From Dyella amyloliquefaciens (GTDB lineage: Bacteria > Pseudomonadota > Gammaproteobacteria > Xanthomonadales > Rhodanobacteraceae): DNA of 64,000 nucleotides. Numbering within the stretch: position 1 is the first letter of the stretch; each line of letters begins with the position of its first letter. Below, piece after piece: positions 7,854-19,351 of the stretch. The notes beneath the pieces were generated by a model, which worked only from the letters and a program-made list of their open reading frames with translations, was not told the origin of the DNA and did no database searches. The stretch lies in contig NZ_SAYT01000002.1 of NCBI RefSeq assembly GCF_004296575.1, positions 549,313 to 613,312 on the forward strand. The letters run 5' to 3'. A program made the translations under genes and the position numbers.

Positions 7854-7900
7854 TCGCTTCAGGGCAATCCACCATGGGTTCTCCCTTGAGATAGCGCGAT

Positions 7901-8160
7901 CTGGCTCGCCTGCAGCGGGCTTCCGAGCCGCTGCCGCGGCCCGGGTCACTTTCTCTTGCATGCCCAAGTCCCACAGGGATTAGCTTCGCGTCAGAAAGTA
8001 ACCAAAGAGAAAGGCACCCCGCGTGGCGCTGGCCGGGCTGCGCCCAGCCAGTCCGTGAGGGGCGGCCGGGCTTTTCGACCGGGCTCCTGCCCGGACGAAA
8101 AGTGCCCGACGTCCTGTCGGGCACCCCTGCGGGGCCTGATCGTCCACCCCTCACCGCCAC
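7901..8160 (+). repeat. Mosaic intergenic repeat, copy 1 (forward)
   Basis: Copy 1 begins with GGCTCGCCTGC-GCGGGCTTCCGA. It continues with GGGTCACTTTCTCTTG, then AGAAAGTAACCAAAGAGAAA, followed by nested GC-rich hairpins (GTCGGGCAC/GTGCCCGAC type). The same blocks occur in the same order on the opposite strand at 8353-8591. Related GGTCACTTT/AAAGTAACC hairpins are common in intergenic DNA of xanthomonads and pseudomonads (recalled, not checked). The function is unknown; a role in transcript 3' ends is possible because it lies between convergent genes. Confidence 0.7.
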
Positions 8161-8230
8161 ACAGGGGACGGTCTAAGGCTCGTGCCGCTGCGCGGCACAT
8201 CGCGTTGTAGAGATGCGCGTCATCGTTCGT

Positions 8231-8305
8231 TGTGGGAGCGCACCCTGTGCGCGACCGCAGAGGTGATGCCCTACGCCGCGGTGGCGCACAGGGTGCGCTC
8301 CTACA
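8231..8305. repeat. REP-like inverted pair
   Basis: Unit 8231-8254 (TGGGAGCGCACCCTGTGCGC, +) faces unit 8281-8305 on the other strand across 26 bases. Each unit has an internal palindrome, GCGCAC-N3-GTGCGC, and the pair can form a larger hairpin. Five further inverted pairs of the same family lie at 12698-12763, 13056-13291, 17851-17970, 38856-38931 and 42530-42612. This arrangement resembles BIME-type REP pairs. Confidence 0.85.
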
Positions 8306-8352
8306 GAGAGGAGGGTCCCGCTCTTCGCTTTGACTCTTGATCTCCCCTCCCC

Positions 8353-8591
8353 TATGCCGCGGCGGGCGGGTGGAGGAAAGCCCGAAGGGTGGCCGGCAAG
8401 GACGCCGGCCAGTTTGTCGTCAGGGCAGGATGCCCTGTCGACAAACCCCGCAACCCGCCCGCGTACCTTCCGCGCGTCAGCCCGGAAGGCGCGAAATGGG
8501 GTGGCCTCTCTTTTGGTTACTTTTCTCTGGCCATACAGAGAAAAGTGACCCGGCCTCCGGCAGGAGGTCGGAAGCCCGCGGCAGGCGAGCC
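8353..8591 (-). repeat. Mosaic intergenic repeat, copy 2 (inverted)
   Basis: Read on the minus strand this copy has the same block order as 7901-8160. GGCTCGCCTGC and the GGGCTTCCGA block come first, then GGGTCACTTTTCTCTG, AGAGAAAAGTAACCAAAAGA, and a GC-rich hairpin series including TTTGTCGACAGGGCA / TGCCCTGACGACAAA. Loop segments and hairpin sequences differ from copy 1 while the arms are kept. The two copies flank the REP pair at 8231-8305 almost symmetrically. Confidence 0.7.
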
Positions 8592-8628
8592 CAGTCGCGA
8601 CGACGCCTGGAAGAGCAAAAGTCACTGG

Positions 8629-8648
8629 ATCCCTGCTTTTGCAGGGAT
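8629..8648. repeat. Perfect hairpin ATCCCTGC-TTTT-GCAGGGAT
   Basis: An 8-bp perfect stem with a TTTT loop, preceded by CACTGG and followed by GACGACG, lies about 110 bases downstream of the gltX stop codon. It has the form of the ATTCCC-N8-GGGAAT type repeats known from Neisseria (dRS3) and related intergenic repeats. Membership is inferred from form only. There is no T-tract, so it is not a clear terminator. Confidence 0.5.
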
Positions 8649-8757
8649 GACGACGTAGGAAGAGTTTTCGCCAGAACAACGCCTTTGCAGCGCTCAGGCA
8701 AAACGCAACCGACCCGCTTCCTCGAACCAGTGATGCAAGCGCCTCAACTTTTCCCGA

Positions 8758-12116: not shown

Positions 12117-12140
12117 CCGGGCGTGGATCACGGAGAAGCC

Positions 12141-12686
12141 ATGAGCACACTCCCGGGCCCTCGTCTCGCCATCGACCGCCGCATGTGCGTGGCCGCCAAC
12201 CGTTGGGGCACGCGTCGCGCGGTCGGCGTCTTCTTCGGCATCATCAGCCGGCTCGGTGATGGCGTGTTCTGGTATTCGCTGATGGCGGTGCTTGCCCTGG
12301 TCGACGGACGCCGCGGCCTGCTCGCCGCCGCGCAGATGGCCGTGACTGGACTCACCGCGTTGTTCCTGTACCGCCTGCTCAAGCGCTGGACGCGCCGCCC
12401 GCGTCCGTTCCGCGCCTGCCCCGGCGTAATCGCTCACGTGCCGCCGCTCGACGAATTCAGTTTCCCATCGGGCCACACGCTGCAGGCGGTGAGTTTTACC
12501 GTCGTCGCGCTGGCCTGGTACCCGCTGCTTGCACCGCTGCTGCTCACCTTCACTACGCTGGTGGGTGCATCGCGCGTGATCCTGGGCCTGCACTATCCGA
12601 GCGACGTGATCGCCGCGACCGCCATCGGCGGCGCGCTGGGTGCGTTGTCGTTGTGGTTGCTGCCGCTGCGGGCGTTGGTGGGGTGA
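12141..12686 (+). CDS. PAP2-superfamily phosphatase (membrane)
   Basis: A 181-residue inner-membrane phosphatase with four or five hydrophobic segments. It carries the three PAP2 motifs: K81-x6-RP (KRWTRRPRP), FPSGH, and SRVILGLHYPSD with the catalytic His and Asp. It hydrolyses a lipid phosphate or pyrophosphate; candidates are undecaprenyl pyrophosphate, phosphatidylglycerol phosphate or a lipid A phosphate, and I cannot choose between them. The ATG at 12141 has GGAG about 8 bases upstream. It is the second gene of a pair with the GT4 glycosyltransferase. Confidence 0.88.
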   Translation: MSTLPGPRLAIDRRMCVAANRWGTRRAVGVFFGIISRLGDGVFWYSLMAVLALVDGRRGLLAAAQMAVTGLTALFLYRLLKRWTRRPRPFRACPGVIAHVPPLDEFSFPSGHTLQAVSFTVVALAWYPLLAPLLLTFTTLVGASRVILGLHYPSDVIAATAIGGALGALSLWLLPLRALVG

Positions 12687-12697
12687 GGCAGGCGTGC

Positions 12698-12763
12698 ATC
12701 GCGCACTGGGTGCGCTCCTACAAGGACACGGTGCCTTGGTAGGAGCGCACCCAGTGCGCGATC
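12698..12763. repeat. REP-like inverted pair
   Basis: Two units of the family (minus-strand copy at 12698-12721, plus-strand copy at 12738-12763, core GTAGGAGCGCACCCAGTGCG) face outwards across 16 bases, forming a long imperfect hairpin 12 bases after the PAP2 stop codon. Confidence 0.88.
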
Positions 12764-12777
12764 CAACCTCGCCGCAC

Positions 12778-12884
12778 CCTGCACAATTCGCCGCCATCGC
12801 GTCGCTCGCGCTTTACACTCAAATAGATAGCGTACCTATCCACAAGCTTTTCCCACATACATCCACATTGTCTGTGGAAAACGC
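12778..12884 (+). repeat. 107-bp structured repeat, unit A
   Basis: Contains GATAG-N5-CTATC. Box 1 (CTATCCACA) is at 12836, box 2 (ACATCCACA) at 12859, and box 3 (TGTGGAAAA, which is TTTTCCACA on the other strand) at 12873. Boxes start 23 and 14 bases apart. TCCACA-N5-TGTGGA makes a second stem. Confidence 0.9.
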
Positions 12885-12936
12885 GCCGGCCTTCGCGTGC
12901 CTGCCCGTCCGCGGATGCCCTGTTGAGTCGCACCAG

Positions 12937-13044
12937 CCGCTGGGCAAATCAGCATCACTGCGTCGCGACCTGTTTGGCTTCAATGAGATAGATCATCTAT
13001 CCACAGGTTGCCGGAAGGCGTATCCACATCGACTGTGGAAAACC
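12937..13044 (+). repeat. 107-bp structured repeat, unit B
   Basis: GATAG-ATCAT-CTATC, then boxes at 12997 (CTATCCACA), 13020 (GTATCCACA) and 13034 (TGTGGAAAA). The 23- and 14-base spacing is unchanged from unit A, although the 14 bases between boxes 1 and 2 differ completely. Confidence 0.9.
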
Positions 13045-13055
13045 ATGGCGTAGCG

Positions 13056-13082
13056 CAGTCGCGCACAGGGGGCGCTCCCACA
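13056..13082 (-). repeat. REP-like unit (minus orientation)
   Basis: Variant unit GTCGCGCACAGGGGGCGCTC, 12 bases after unit B. It pairs in inverted orientation with 13267-13291, enclosing repeat unit C. Confidence 0.75.
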
Positions 13083-13098
13083 AGAGCACGCGAAACGG

Positions 13099-13207
13099 TT
13101 GTGTGCTCAATCAGGCATCAGCATGTCGCGATGCGTTTATCGTCAACGAGATAGCGCAGCTATCCACAGGCTTCCTGTGTGCGTATCCACATTGGCTGTG
13201 GAAAACC
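13099..13207 (+). repeat. 107-bp structured repeat, unit C
   Basis: GATAG-CGCAG-CTATC, boxes at 13160 (CTATCCACA), 13183 (GTATCCACA) and 13197 (TGTGGAAAA), same spacing. It lies between two opposed REP units. Confidence 0.9.
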
Positions 13208-13266
13208 GCAGAGGCCTTGCAACCACATCGAGCCATGCCCCTTAAAACGAACACGGAGATCGTGAT

Positions 13267-13291
13267 GTGGGAGCGCACCCTGTGCGCGACA
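13267..13291 (+). repeat. REP-like unit (plus orientation)
   Basis: GTGGGAGCGCACCCTGTGCG, the partner in inverted orientation of the unit at 13056-13082. Confidence 0.82.
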
Positions 13292-13305
13292 CGGGCCGCC
13301 TCAAG

Positions 13306-13413
13306 CCTGCGCAATCAGACATCAGCGTGTCACGTCATCTTTACCATCAAATAGATAGCCCACCTATCCACAGCCTTCTTCCATGCGTATCCACATTGGC
13401 TGTGGAAAACCGT
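13306..13413 (+). repeat. 107-bp structured repeat, unit D
   Basis: GATAG-CCCAC-CTATC, boxes at 13364, 13387 and 13401, same spacing. The second stem TCCACA-TTGGC-TGTGGA is identical to that of unit C. Confidence 0.9.
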
Positions 13414-13497
13414 GGCGCACGCAGGCTGCGCTCCGCATTCGAATCGATTGCTGGTCACGTGGAACCGCTTCTGGCGCTCGACGTTGCTTGCCTCGCT

Positions 13498-13604
13498 CCT
13501 GCGCAAACATGCGCCACTGCGTCGTCAGGTCTTTATCTTCAGACAGATAGCGCACCTATCCACAGGCTGTTCCCGGACACATCCACACGAGCTGTGGAAA
13601 ACGT
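13498..13604 (+). repeat. 107-bp structured repeat, unit E
   Basis: GATAG-CGCAC-CTATC, boxes at 13556, 13579 (ACATCCACA) and 13593, same spacing. The unit ends 3 bases before the accD terminator. Confidence 0.9.
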
Positions 13605-13660: not shown

Positions 13661-14533
13661 TCACGCCACGCGCGGTGCCTTCTGCATGATGCCCAGCAGG
13701 TCGGCCAGCTTGTCGCGCATTTCGCGGCGATCGACAATCATGTCGATTGCGCCGTGCTCGACCAGGAACTCCGAACGCTGGAAGCCTTCCGGCAAGGTCT
13801 CGCGCACGGTCTGCTCGATCACGCGCGGACCGGCGAAACCGATCAGCGCCTTCGGCTCGGCCACGTTGATGTCACCCAGCATGCCCAGGCTTGCCGACAC
13901 GCCGCCGGTGGTCGGATGCGTGAGCACGCTGATGTACGGCACGCCGGCGTCGCGCATGCGCGCGAGCGCCGCGGAGGTCTTCGCCATCTGCATCAGCGAG
14001 AACAGCGATTCCTGCATGCGCGCACCGCCCGTGGCGGAGAAGCACACCAGGGCGCTGCGATCGGCCAGCGCACGCTCGGCAGCGCGGGTGAACTTCTCAC
14101 CCACTACCGAACCCATCGAACCGCCCATGTAGGAGAACTCGAACGCCACCGCCATCAGCGGGCGACCCTTGAGGCGGCCGCTCATCGCCAGCAGCGCGTC
14201 CTTCTCGCCGGTGGATTTCTGCGCCGCGATGATGCGGTCGCGATACTTCTTGGAATCACGGAACTTGAGCGGGTCGCTCGGCTCCATGCTGGCCCACAGC
14301 TCCTGCACCGAACCCGCGTCGAGGAGCGAGTCCAGGCGCGCACGTGCGTCGATGGTGTGGTGATGGGCGCACTTGGGGCACACCATCAGGTTGCGCTCCA
14401 GCTCCGGCCGGTAAAGCACCGTGCCGCAGCCGCCGCACTTCTCCCACACGCCTTCCGGCACCTTGCCCTTGCCGCCGGTTCCGGTGGCTTCCGTGCGGGC
14501 GCGCGGAGTCATGATTTTCTGGAGCCAATTCAT
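13661..14533 (-). CDS. accD: Acetyl-CoA carboxylase carboxyltransferase subunit beta
   Basis: A 290-residue cytoplasmic subunit that, with AccA, transfers the carboxyl group from carboxybiotin to acetyl-CoA to make malonyl-CoA for fatty-acid synthesis. An N-terminal four-cysteine zinc ribbon (CGGCGTVLY then VCPKC) lies near residues 34-57. The crotonase-like carboxyltransferase core includes [13 protein letters not shown] and [10 protein letters not shown]. Length is normal. The start ATG at 14533 is well placed before the [10 protein letters not shown] sequence typical of AccD. It follows trpA on the same strand, 186 bases downstream, with a large inverted repeat in the gap. Confidence 0.98.
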
Positions 14534-14719: not shown

Positions 14720-15517
14720 TCAGGCATCGAGTGCCTTGCGTATCGGCGCCAGGAAGTCCTTGGCTCGCGCGACGACGTCATCGACGTCCTCCGCACCCGC
14801 CAGGCGCTCCACCAGCGCACTGCCGATCACCACCGCATCCGCGAAACCGGCGATGGCCTTGGCCGACTGCGCATCGCGCACGCCGAAACCTACAGCCACC
14901 GGTGCCTTGGACTTCGCACGGATATCGGCCACGCGAGCAGCAATGTCATTGGTGCTCAATCGTGCCGCACCCGTGATGCCGGCGAACGAGACATAGTACA
15001 GGAAACCCTGGGCCGACCCGCACAGCTGCACCATACGCGAGGGTGCGGTGGTGGGAGCCGCCAGCAGGATCTGCTGCAGGCCCGCGTGGCGCAGCGGCTG
15101 CAGTACGGAGGACTCCTCCAGCGGACAATCGACCACCAGCACGCCATCCACGCCGGCCTGCACGGCCTCCTGCGCAAAGCGCACGTAGCCGTGGATCTCG
15201 ATGGGGTTGAGGTAGCCCATCAGCACGATCGGCGTGTCCGCGTCACGCTGGCGGAACTGCGAAACCCAGCCCAGCACGTCTCCAAGACCTACGCCCTTCG
15301 CGATTGCCCGCTCGCTGGCGTGCTGGATCACCGGGCCATCCGCCATCGGATCGGAGAACGGCACACCCAGTTCGATCACGTCGGCCCCGGCATCGACCAG
15401 TGCGTGCATCAGCGCAACGGCATGCTCAGGCGACGGATCACCCGCGGTGACGAACGGAATGAGCCCAGTGCGTCCCGCGGACTTCAACTGCTCGAAACGA
15501 CGATCGATGCGGCTCAT
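14720..15517 (-). CDS. trpA: Tryptophan synthase alpha chain
   Basis: A 265-residue TIM-barrel enzyme that cleaves indole-3-glycerol phosphate to indole and glyceraldehyde 3-phosphate; indole passes to TrpB in the alpha2-beta2 complex. It starts [12 protein letters not shown]. The catalytic glutamate and aspartate lie in [17 protein letters not shown] chose the ATG at 15517, which overlaps the trpB stop codon (ATGA), rather than the longer open frame because the conserved N-terminus begins there. The final step of tryptophan synthesis is therefore translationally coupled to trpB. Confidence 0.97.
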
Positions 15518-16722
15518 ACCTGCACTCCTTCGCGTGCGGCAATCGTGTGCACGTCCTTGTCGCCGCGACCGGAGAGGTTGCACAGCACCAGGCCGTCCTT
15601 CGGGTATTCGCGTGCCAGCTTGATGGCCTGCGCAACGGCATGGCTCGATTCCAGCGCGGCGAGAATGCCTTCGGTACGCGCCAGCAAGTGGAATGCCTCC
15701 AGCGCCTCGTCATCGGTGACGCCCACGTACTCGGCGCGGCCCGCATCCTTCAGGAATGCGTGCTCCGGACCCACGCCCGGGTAGTCGAGACCAGCCGACA
15801 CCGAATGCGTTTCGGTGATCTGGCCGTTGTCATCGCACAGCACATAGGTGCGATTGCCGTGCAGCACGCCAGGACGACCCGCCGCCAGCGAAGCCGCATG
15901 GTGTCCCGTGGCAATGCCCTCGCCTGCTGCTTCGGCACCCACGATGCGCACCTTCTCGTCATTGAGGAACGCATGGAACAGGCCGATCGCATTGGAGCCA
16001 CCGCCCACGCAGGCGGTGATCACGTCCGGCAGGCGGCCGAATTGTTCCTGCACCTGCACGCGCGCCTCGCGGCCGACGATGCTGTTGAAGTCGCGCACCA
16101 TCAGCGGATACGGGTGCGGTCCGGCCACGGTGCCGATGATGTAGAAGGTGTCGGCCACGTTGGTGACCCAGTCGCGCATCGCTTCATTGAGCGCGTCCTT
16201 GAGCGTCTTCGAGCCGGAGGTGACCGGCACGACTTCCGCACCGAGCAGCTTCATGCGGTAGACGTTGATCTTCTGGCGCTCGATATCCACGGCGCCCATG
16301 TACACCACGCACTTCATGCCGAAGCGTGCGGCCACCGTCGCGCTCGCCACGCCGTGCTGGCCCGCGCCGGTCTCCGCGATGATGCGCGGCTTGCCCATGC
16401 GCTTGGCCACCAGCGCCTGGCCGATGGTGTTGTTGATCTTGTGCGCGCCGGTGTGGTTGAGGTCTTCGCGCTTGAGCAGGATGCGCGCACCGCCCACGTG
16501 CTGCGACAGGCGCTCGGCGTAGTACACGGGACTGGGACGGCCCACGTAGTACTTCAGGTCACGATCCAGCTCGGCCAGGAAATCCGGATCCTCGCGCAGG
16601 CGCAGGTAGGCCTCGGTCAGCTCGGCCAGGGGCGCCATCAGGGTTTCGGCGACGTAGCTGCCGCCGTAGGCGCCAAACCGCCCGTGTTCGTCGGGGTAGG
16701 CGTTGAAGTCGATCTTGCTCAT
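15514..16722 (-). CDS. trpB: Tryptophan synthase beta chain
   Basis: A 402-residue PLP enzyme that condenses indole with serine to form tryptophan. The PLP lysine is K95 in [18 protein letters not shown] and the phosphate-binding GGGSNA motif are present. Length and ends match the bacterial TrpB1 type. It is the first gene of trpBA and is divergent from a TrpI-like LysR gene, with 105 bases between the two start codons; this is the arrangement by which TrpI activates trpBA in Pseudomonas. It is not part of a full trp operon. Confidence 0.98.
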
Positions 16723-17727: not shown

Positions 17728-17835
17728 GACTGCGCATTTGCGCACCATCGCGTCGCCGCGCCTTCGCGATCAGGCAGTTAGCGCATCTATCCACAGGCTT
17801 TTCCAGCACGCATCCACATTCGCTGTGGAAAACGT
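17728..17835 (+). repeat. 107-bp structured repeat, unit F (dispersed copy)
   Basis: Single copy 4 kb from the main cluster. It has GTTAG-CGCAT-CTATC (one change in the first arm), and boxes at 17787 (CTATCCACA), 17810 (GCATCCACA) and 17824 (TGTGGAAAA) with the same 23- and 14-base spacing. It lies 3 bases after the trpI-like stop codon. Confidence 0.88.
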
Positions 17836-17850: not shown

Positions 17851-17970
17851 TGTAGGAGCGCACCCAGTGCGCGATCGGTGCCGCAACGTGCCTGTGCAGC
17901 GGGCTGATGCGACAACCGTTGGCTGAGGTGAGCCGGCGAGGCTGCGGTCGCGCACTGGGTGCGCTCCTAC
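17851..17970. repeat. REP-like inverted pair overlapping the trpF stop codon
   Basis: Units at 17851-17875 (+) and 17947-17970 (-), core GTAGGAGCGCACCCAGTGCG. On the minus strand the TAG within GTAGGAGCGC is the trpF stop codon, so the repeat abuts or forms the 3' end of the gene. Confidence 0.88.
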
Positions 17971-18587
17971 CGTGAGGCGTTGCGCACGGCCTGGATGAAA
18001 TCCGCCAGCTTGACCGGGTCCTTGATGCCCGGCGCGGATTCGACACCACTGGCGACATCCACCGCCCACGGTCGTGCCACGCGAACGGCCTCGCCCACGT
18101 TCGCCGGGGTGAGGCCACCCGCGAGAATCAACGGCTGCGCGAGATCGTTGGGCATCAGCGACCAGTCGAAGGTCTTGCCGCTGCCGCCTGCCTCACCGAG
18201 GCCATGCCCGTCCAGCAGCAGCCCAGCCGCGGACGGATAGCGCCGCAGCTTGTGCAAGGCCACCTTGCCCTCGCCCATGGCAATGGCCTTGAGAAAGCGC
18301 CGACCGAACTGGGCGCACCAGTTGTCCGGCTCCTGGCCATGGAACTGCAGCAGATCCGGCTGTACCGCTTCGATCACTTCCTGCACGAGCTCGGCATCGT
18401 CGTCCATGAACAGCGCGACTGTGCCGACGAAGGGCGGCAAGGCATCCACGATGGTGCGTGCCTGCTCCAGCGTGACGCGGCGCTTGCTGCGCTCCGTGAA
18501 GACCAGCCCGATCGCATCCGCGCCCAGCTTCGCCGCCAGCAGTGCGTCCTCGACGCGGGTCATGCCGCAGCACTTGATGCGGGTCAT
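17967..18587 (-). CDS. trpF: Phosphoribosylanthranilate isomerase
   Basis: A 206-residue TIM-barrel enzyme that isomerises N-(5-phosphoribosyl)anthranilate to CdRP in tryptophan synthesis. The start [11 protein letters not shown] contains the catalytic Cys region. A phosphate-binding stretch [11 protein letters not shown] and a DVASGVE motif near the C-terminus are typical. The ATG at 18587 overlaps the truA stop (ATGA), so trpF is coupled to truA, as in many gammaproteobacteria. Its TAG stop lies inside a REP-like element. Confidence 0.96.
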
Positions 18588-19351
18588 TGGCTTACCTCCG
18601 CCGGCAGGCCCCAACGTGCTTCGTAGCGCGGCCCGATGAACGTCAAGCCGGAGGCGAGTGCCGTAGGACCCGCCACTTCACGGCTGCGCCCCGCCAACAG
18701 TTCGCCCATCCAGGACACCGGTTGCTCGCCGCGCCCGATCGGCAACAGCGAGCCGACGATGTTGCGCACCATGTGATGCAGGAAAGCGTTCGCCTCGATT
18801 TCGATGATGACCTGCTCATCCTCGCGACGGACGCTCACGCCCAGCACTTCGCGACGCGCATGAGCCGCCTGGCAGGAGATCGCGCGGAATGCGCTGAAGT
18901 CGTGTTCGCCCATCAGGACCTGCGCCGCCTCGTGCATGCGCACGGCATCCAGCGGCAGCCGCTCCCATGTCACGTAGCGCGCGTCGAGTGCGGCGCGCAC
19001 CGGTCGATTGAGAATGCGATAGCAGTAACGCCGGCTGCGCGCGGAAAAACGTGCATGGAACGCCTCGTCCACCGGCTGTGCCCACAGCACCGCCACGCTG
19101 GGCGGCAAGTTGGAGCAGGTGCCGAGCACCCAGCCGCGCAGGTCGCGTTGCACTTCGGTGTCGAAATGCACCACCTGGCAACGCCCGTGTACACCCGCAT
19201 CCGTGCGCCCCGCACAGGTCACTTCCACGGGATGCGCGGCAACGAACGACAACGCCTTCTCCAGCGCGCCCTGCACGGTGTCGCCGTGGGTCAGCCGCTG
19301 CCAGCCGGAGAAATCGGTGCCGTCGTATTCGATGCCAAGGGCAAGTCGCAT
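18584..19351 (-). CDS. truA: tRNA pseudouridine(38-40) synthase
   Basis: A 255-residue enzyme that converts U38, U39 and U40 of the tRNA anticodon arm to pseudouridine. The catalytic aspartate is D51 in [11 protein letters not shown]. The N-terminal [13 protein letters not shown] and C-terminal [13 protein letters not shown] motifs are conserved. It follows fimV by 105 bases on the same strand and overlaps trpF at its end. Confidence 0.97.

Follow-up and report, generated by a model that had tools for sequence, protein, structure and literature searches.

Phased three-box modules in Dyella amyloliquefaciens and its relatives as candidate DARS-like elements

Five copies of a short element, named A to E, follow one another in a 64,000-nucleotide stretch of the genome of the soil bacterium Dyella amyloliquefaciens (the whole stretch of DNA that was analysed, hereafter the window), and a sixth copy, F, lies further downstream. 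Each copy carries three nonamers resembling DnaA boxes, which raises the question of what such modules are: sites at which DnaA is handled, or a structured RNA or mobile repeat, as a preliminary description of this DNA had alternatively proposed. The pattern CTATCCACA-N16-ATCCACA-N5-TGTGGAAAA matched the window six times without mismatch, always on the + strand (match starts 12836, 12997, 13160, 13364, 13556, and 17787), and gave 0 matches in 100 dinucleotide shuffles of the window. The start-to-start spacing of 23 and 14 bp claimed for copies A to F was thus borne out exactly, as was the presence of TCCACA-N5-TGTGGA in all six. The stem GATAG-N5-CTATC had been assigned to every unit; it was found in A to E, but not in F, which reads GTTAGCGCATCTATC. 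The span of 107 bp given for the unit agrees with the block conserved among relatives, which runs from about -56 to +47 from box 1. In contrast to the almost fully variable spacer described between boxes 1 and 2, a majority sequence, GGCTTnnCC, was observed, with per-base frequencies of 0.75-0.99 in 104 units from relatives and weaker conservation over 345 units. The starts of units A to E are unevenly apart (161, 163, 204, and 192 bp), and the rigidity thus resides inside the unit. The A-E array is flanked by two convergent genes, a PAP2 phosphatase gene and accD. At up to 2 mismatches, the window's genome holds 11 pattern matches. Scattered among the modules are palindromic, REP-like repeats of the GTAGGAGCGCACCCAGTGCGCGA type (window 12681-12779, 13058-13082, and 13266-13290).

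Table 1. Features of the modules and their surroundings. Positions are those of the window, except for the 12/14 site, which is given in the coordinates of the genome assembly.
Feature	Position	Strand	Remarks
PAP2-family phosphatase gene	12123..12686	+	PF01569; points into the A-E array
Module A	12779..12884	+	DnaA-box-like nonamers 12836-12844 (+), 12859-12867 (+), 12873-12881 (-)
Distal block, module A (tentative)	12780..12795	+	-55/-54; relatives often carry a Fis-like consensus there
IHF-like stretch, module A (tentative)	12817..12829	+	-18 to -6 from box 1; 7 of 9
Module B	12940..13045	+	boxes 12997-13005 (+), 13020-13028 (+), 13034-13042 (-)
Module C	13103..13208	+	boxes 13160-13168 (+), 13183-13191 (+), 13197-13205 (-)
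Module D	13307..13412	+	boxes 13364-13372 (+), 13387-13395 (+), 13401-13409 (-)
Module E	13499..13604	+	boxes 13556-13564 (+), 13579-13587 (+), 13593-13601 (-)
accD	13661..14533	-	PF01039, PF17848; converges on the A-E array from the right
trpB	15514-16722	-	one flank of module F
Module F	17730..17835	+	boxes 17787-17795 (+), 17810-17818 (+), 17824-17832 (-)
trpF	17967-18614	-	other flank of module F
12/14 site of the window's genome	G000:C1:639997		box II-III distance of 12 bp, as in DARS

The stems with their variable loops had been read as a sign of selection on structure. This was analyzed in 345 distinct units, which are related, so that counts among them are not independent events, and whose loci were for the most part chosen with the 23/14 pattern. 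The five pairs of the GATAG/CTATC stem were paired in 0.42-0.74 of the units and were expected from the columns in 0.42-0.74, with observed pairing equal to expectation within 0.03, and the whole stem was present in 73 of the 345; selection on structure is not supported. The palindrome made by boxes 2 and 3 is explained by two inverted DnaA boxes. A structured RNA was ruled against, since there was no covariation over the 345 units and no Rfam family reached the gathering score in an Rfam scan of the window. The mobile repeat has one observation in its favor: five further modules of the window's genome (loci L009-L013) lie in dispersed repeats, four of them in a composite repeat of about 1.1 kb whose main pieces are 87-94% identical, and the fifth in a diverged relative of that repeat (77-79%). 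However, at least four named genera (Dyella, Rhodanobacter, Frateuria, and Fulvimonas) keep arrays at their accD/trp locus, which makes a mobile element unlikely as the basic nature of the module. A structured RNA or mobile repeat is the least probable of the readings considered here, and we regard it as scarcely credible. Stretches matching the arms of the 1.1-kb repeat were also seen at 7896-8660 of the window, there without a module.

Among relatives, an earlier count in the fetched loci had given 339 triples with 23/14 spacing, 20 with 12/14, and 4 others out of 363, a count biased by the fact that most of the loci had been picked with the 23/14 pattern. It was replaced by a search with free gaps, TCCACA-N(1-31)-TCCACA-N(1-25)-TGTGGA, in 13 Dyella genomes, which retrieved 129 box triples, compared with 0 for the reversed pattern used as a control. 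By script count, 113 of these triples were spaced 23/14 and 13 were spaced 12/14, the latter one in each of the 13 genomes. The remaining three were one 22/14, one 25/14, which overlaps a module on the opposite strand, and one 11/15. No triple was found in twenty evenly placed 20-kb stretches of one Dyella genome (G004), despite the 145 occurrences of TCCACA there on both strands. These results support the fixed phasing, as expected for a protein such as DnaA read across the boxes. The distance between units varies, in contrast to this fixed inner spacing: neighboring modules are 113 to 290 bp apart (166 pairs, 300-bp cut-off), and no sharp 10.5-bp period that would indicate helical phasing between units was detected in these pairs. 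The boxes themselves are of unequal quality, as box 3 fits TTWTNCACA fully in 281 of the 345 units, and box 2 is a poor DnaA box, with two or three mismatches in 255.

The inner spacing was compared with that of the DARS (DnaA-reactivating sequence) sites of E. coli K-12, whose box names were assigned to our matches from the published description. DARS1 was measured as TTATCCACT(+), TTATCCACA(-), and TAATACACA(-), and DARS2 as TTATTCACC(+), CTATCCACA(-), and TTCTTCACA(-), both at 14 and 12 bp. When the module is read on the minus strand, its box 3 takes the place of box I (TTTTCCACA), and box II faces it head-to-head at 14 bp. The third box points the same way as box II and lies at 23 bp, that is, 12 + 11, about one helical turn further out. 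A degenerate box may also exist within GGCTTnnCC at the place of DARS box III, as judged from column frequencies. DARS boxes I and II are described as acting head-to-head, an arrangement linked in E. coli to the release of ADP (PMC8682772, available excerpt). On account of this pair, a DARS-like reactivation is favored, and titration comes next.

The 12/14 triples retrieved by the free-gap search correspond to a separate site, which carries the DARS spacing. This form occurs once in each of 20 Dyella genomes and was found in 39 of 41 relatives (up to 2 mismatches); its core matched in 211 of 321 genomes of the class, a number that can include other DnaA-box sites, and the reversed control matched in none. 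By tblastn, priA was located downstream of the site at 18 of the 20 loci examined (L094-L113, 15 of them from one genus), with no match in L095 and L097, and PriA domains were confirmed for the window's genome. For the class, 20 stretches from 19 genomes (L255-L274) were sampled around matches with 0 or 1 mismatch, and 19 sites were located by regular expression in 18 of them, L257 and L274 giving none. A priA gene was detected by tblastn in seven of these 20 stretches; no DnaA match was obtained with a 454-residue DnaA query, which was run without a positive control, nor was there a match for MutH or RppH. An IHF consensus (8 of 9 or better) was located at -112..-109 from box II in 16 of the 19 class sites (shuffled mean 0.14, maximum 2), and in 14 of 21 sites from the order, which come mostly from one genus (shuffled mean 0.02). 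A full Fis consensus (6/6) was found at -78 from box II in 6 of the 19 class sites and 15 of the 21 order sites. In the window's own genome, the 22/14 triple (G000:C1:647143-647181) lies 7 kb from the 12/14 site; it is the only triple found near that site there, and lies where relatives have their second array.

Fis- and IHF-like sites were also sought in the modules. The Fis consensus at -79 or -78 from box II was full in 98 of the 345 units and reached 5 of 6 or better in 208, and the true consensus ranked first among 720 permutations of its letters at this place. The six window copies have at most 4 of 6 at the shared place, a degenerate form, and a Fis homologue of 39% identity is encoded in the window's genome. 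The IHF consensus at -18 from box 1 reached 7 of 9 or better in 98 of the 345 units; in the window, the same place scored 7 in D, 8 in F, 6 in B and E, and under 7 in C. Within the genus, 31 of 67 units had it, but 85 of 15,119 other letter orders did as well or better (19 of 3,496 in a sample), and the site is thus kept as tentative. Hardly any module shares the -110 IHF site of the 12/14 core (of 346 units, 2 have it at -110 and 2 at -108). An upstream dyad scan gave modest signals.

An IHF-like stretch adjoining box 1 at a fixed offset, together with a weak IHF match that overlaps box 1 and the spacer (start +2, 7 of 9 in 62 of 345 units), would suit a datA-like inactivation, in which the module and IHF would promote ATP hydrolysis by DnaA. 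We consider this improbable. According to the available part of PMC5742627, datA requires that its boxes 7, 2, and 3 point the same way and that an IHF site lie between boxes 2 and 3; in K-12, 162 bp separate these two boxes. In the module, boxes 2 and 3 instead face each other at the spacing seen in DARS, and the only IHF-like match between the module boxes is the weak one overlapping box 1. The datA-like titrating cluster first proposed pointed to the right field, but datA fits less well than DARS, as 14 bp head-to-head is the arrangement of DARS boxes I and II and datA boxes 3 and 4 are 12 bp apart.

The distribution of the modules was surveyed at up to 3 mismatches, and the counts are upper bounds, as some of the matches listed are 12/14 sites seen through the 23/14 pattern (for example in G004, and the sole listed matches of G326 and G257). 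With this limit, the pattern was found in 20 of 20 genomes of the genus, in 77 of 147 genomes and 18 of 26 genera of the family, and in 75 of 250 genomes of the order, all in families f1 and f2, with none in families f3-f12. In the class, 5 of 293 genomes matched: the window's genome, the three other members of the order in the sample, and G426, whose match overlaps a 12/14-like arrangement. Outside two families of the order, modules are rare. In a scan with organism names, at least 118 stretches matched, and of the 80 among the matches listed, 77 belong to Dyella, Luteibacter, Rhodanobacter, Frateuria, Fulvimonas, Xanthomonas, Stenotrophomonas, Pseudoxanthomonas, and kin. The other three listed are MAG contigs named Desulfuromonadales or Desulfomonile, which we take to belong to the phylum Desulfobacterota, with a single 23/14 match each (L161:6989-7034, L175:2826-2871, and L191:685-730).

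In 119 loci tested, mostly of 8 kb, accD, trp, or truA was a neighbor in 26, the degV/sppA/priA neighborhood was recognized in 6, and neither was seen in 87. The first of these numbers would favor a DnaA-dependent control of the neighboring accD and trp genes. This is very improbable in our view, given that the 87 loci show no marker gene of the two named places and that no promoter is expected where modules A to E lie, between convergent genes.

The place on the chromosome was expressed as distance from dnaA. With exact lengths, the 12/14 core lies at 0.19 (G004) and 0.15 (G144) of the chromosome and the accD array at 0.41 in both; with rounded lengths (G005, G012, and G019), the values are 0.14-0.16 and 0.34-0.38. 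E. coli DARS2 and DARS1 lie at 0.21 and 0.33, computed from the coordinate that we take to be oriC. These positions bear on the main rival, a DnaA sink, in which the arrays would bind DnaA and lower the free pool without nucleotide exchange. Many copies stand in tandem (in G004, the 15 pattern matches are 14 modules and one 12/14 site), each unit has one strong box, namely box 3, and in E. coli titration by DARS1, DARS2, and datA has been proposed, the three accounting for a large fraction of the titration power according to a 2025 paper (PMC12371093, available excerpt). However, a fixed inner spacing would be unnecessary for a sink, and 126 of the 129 triples are limited to two spacings; early titration would be poor at an array 0.34-0.41 of the chromosome away from dnaA (five genomes). 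We hold the sink to be unlikely, at about half the probability of the reading that we prefer.

That preferred reading, to which we assign an even probability, is that the modules are amplified and modified DnaA-reactivating, DARS-like modules. Their geometry, conservation, and positions, and the absence of RNA covariation, are observed directly; DnaA binding, nucleotide exchange, and an effect on initiation are what we infer for them. In this prediction, ADP-DnaA would bind boxes I and II head-to-head, a contact that in E. coli stimulates the loss of ADP. Bending of the DNA onto the complex would come from a Fis-like site, and perhaps an IHF-like one, situated past the third box. The resulting apo-DnaA would next bind ATP, and the amount of reactivation would be determined by the tandem and dispersed copies. 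The modules probably help to tune the timing of chromosome copying. Against the DARS-like reading stand the third box, which is off the DARS place, the poor box 2, the low Fis scores of the window copies, the weak module IHF match, and the near absence of the -110 site, and the same parts could titrate DnaA without exchange. The wider scheme, which is plausible but falls somewhat short of an even probability, is that the Gammaproteobacteria widely share a DARS site, often by priA, with IHF at about -110 and Fis at -78 from box II, and that this site was copied in two Xanthomonadales families into 23/14 arrays with the third box one helical turn outward, forming a multicopy bank of candidate DnaA-reactivating modules.

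Conservation of DARS2 has been reported for E. coli-proximal beta- or gamma-proteobacteria (PMC5742627 and PMC4245941, both in excerpt) and across seven species (PMC8682772, in excerpt). In the partial listings of the open-access literature, no description of such a site in Xanthomonadales was found; the sole paper with both "DARS2" and "Xanthomonas" concerns mitochondrial disease. A DARS-spaced site in 211 of 321 genomes of the class, along with an amplified variant in one order, would offer new ground for working out the spacing rules of ADP stripping from DnaA and how copy number and position set replication timing, and the natural 12/14 and 23/14 series is a ready test of box III and of helical phase.

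Compared with known systems, the modules share with oriC the presence of DnaA boxes. They differ in place, as the GC skew of G004 changes sign near dnaA and about opposite to it, away from the arrays and the 12/14 site. In 22 stretches of this genome alone, the skew becomes positive between 850 and 965 kb, with dnaA at 806 kb, and negative again between 3.16 and 3.38 Mb, the 482-kb stretch, which is plus, being an exception. The 12/14 match was also considered as oriC and dropped, since dnaA and the skew of G004 place this site (4.73 Mb) off the origin. With datA, the modules have in common a DnaA-box cluster in intergenic DNA with an IHF-like stretch, but box directions and distances differ, the third module box being inverted and 14 bp away. 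The likeness to DARS1 and DARS2 is closer. In these two sites, boxes I-III are identically spaced and box I is oriented against boxes II and III (PMC5742627, available excerpt), and the module likewise has three DnaA-box-like sites with box I opposed to the other two, a box I-II start distance of 14 bp in six of six window modules, and a Fis-like site beyond box III in relatives. In contrast, its box II-III distance is 23 bp in six of six window copies instead of 12 bp, and modules form multicopy arrays. As the 12-bp distance is a defining feature, the module is a DARS-like variant and not a DARS. The Fis-like site of the modules is 78 or 79 bp from box II, whereas the one full Fis match of E. 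coli DARS2 is at -137; two 8-of-9 IHF matches lie there at -99 and -83, with 3 bp between them, in agreement with the description of IBS1 and IBS2 (PMC4245941, available excerpt), and there are further IHF matches at 7 of 9. The priA-linked sibling site, with the order of its IHF and Fis sites swapped relative to E. coli DARS2, matches the 14 and 12 bp of DARS1 and DARS2 exactly and carries both an IHF and a Fis consensus.
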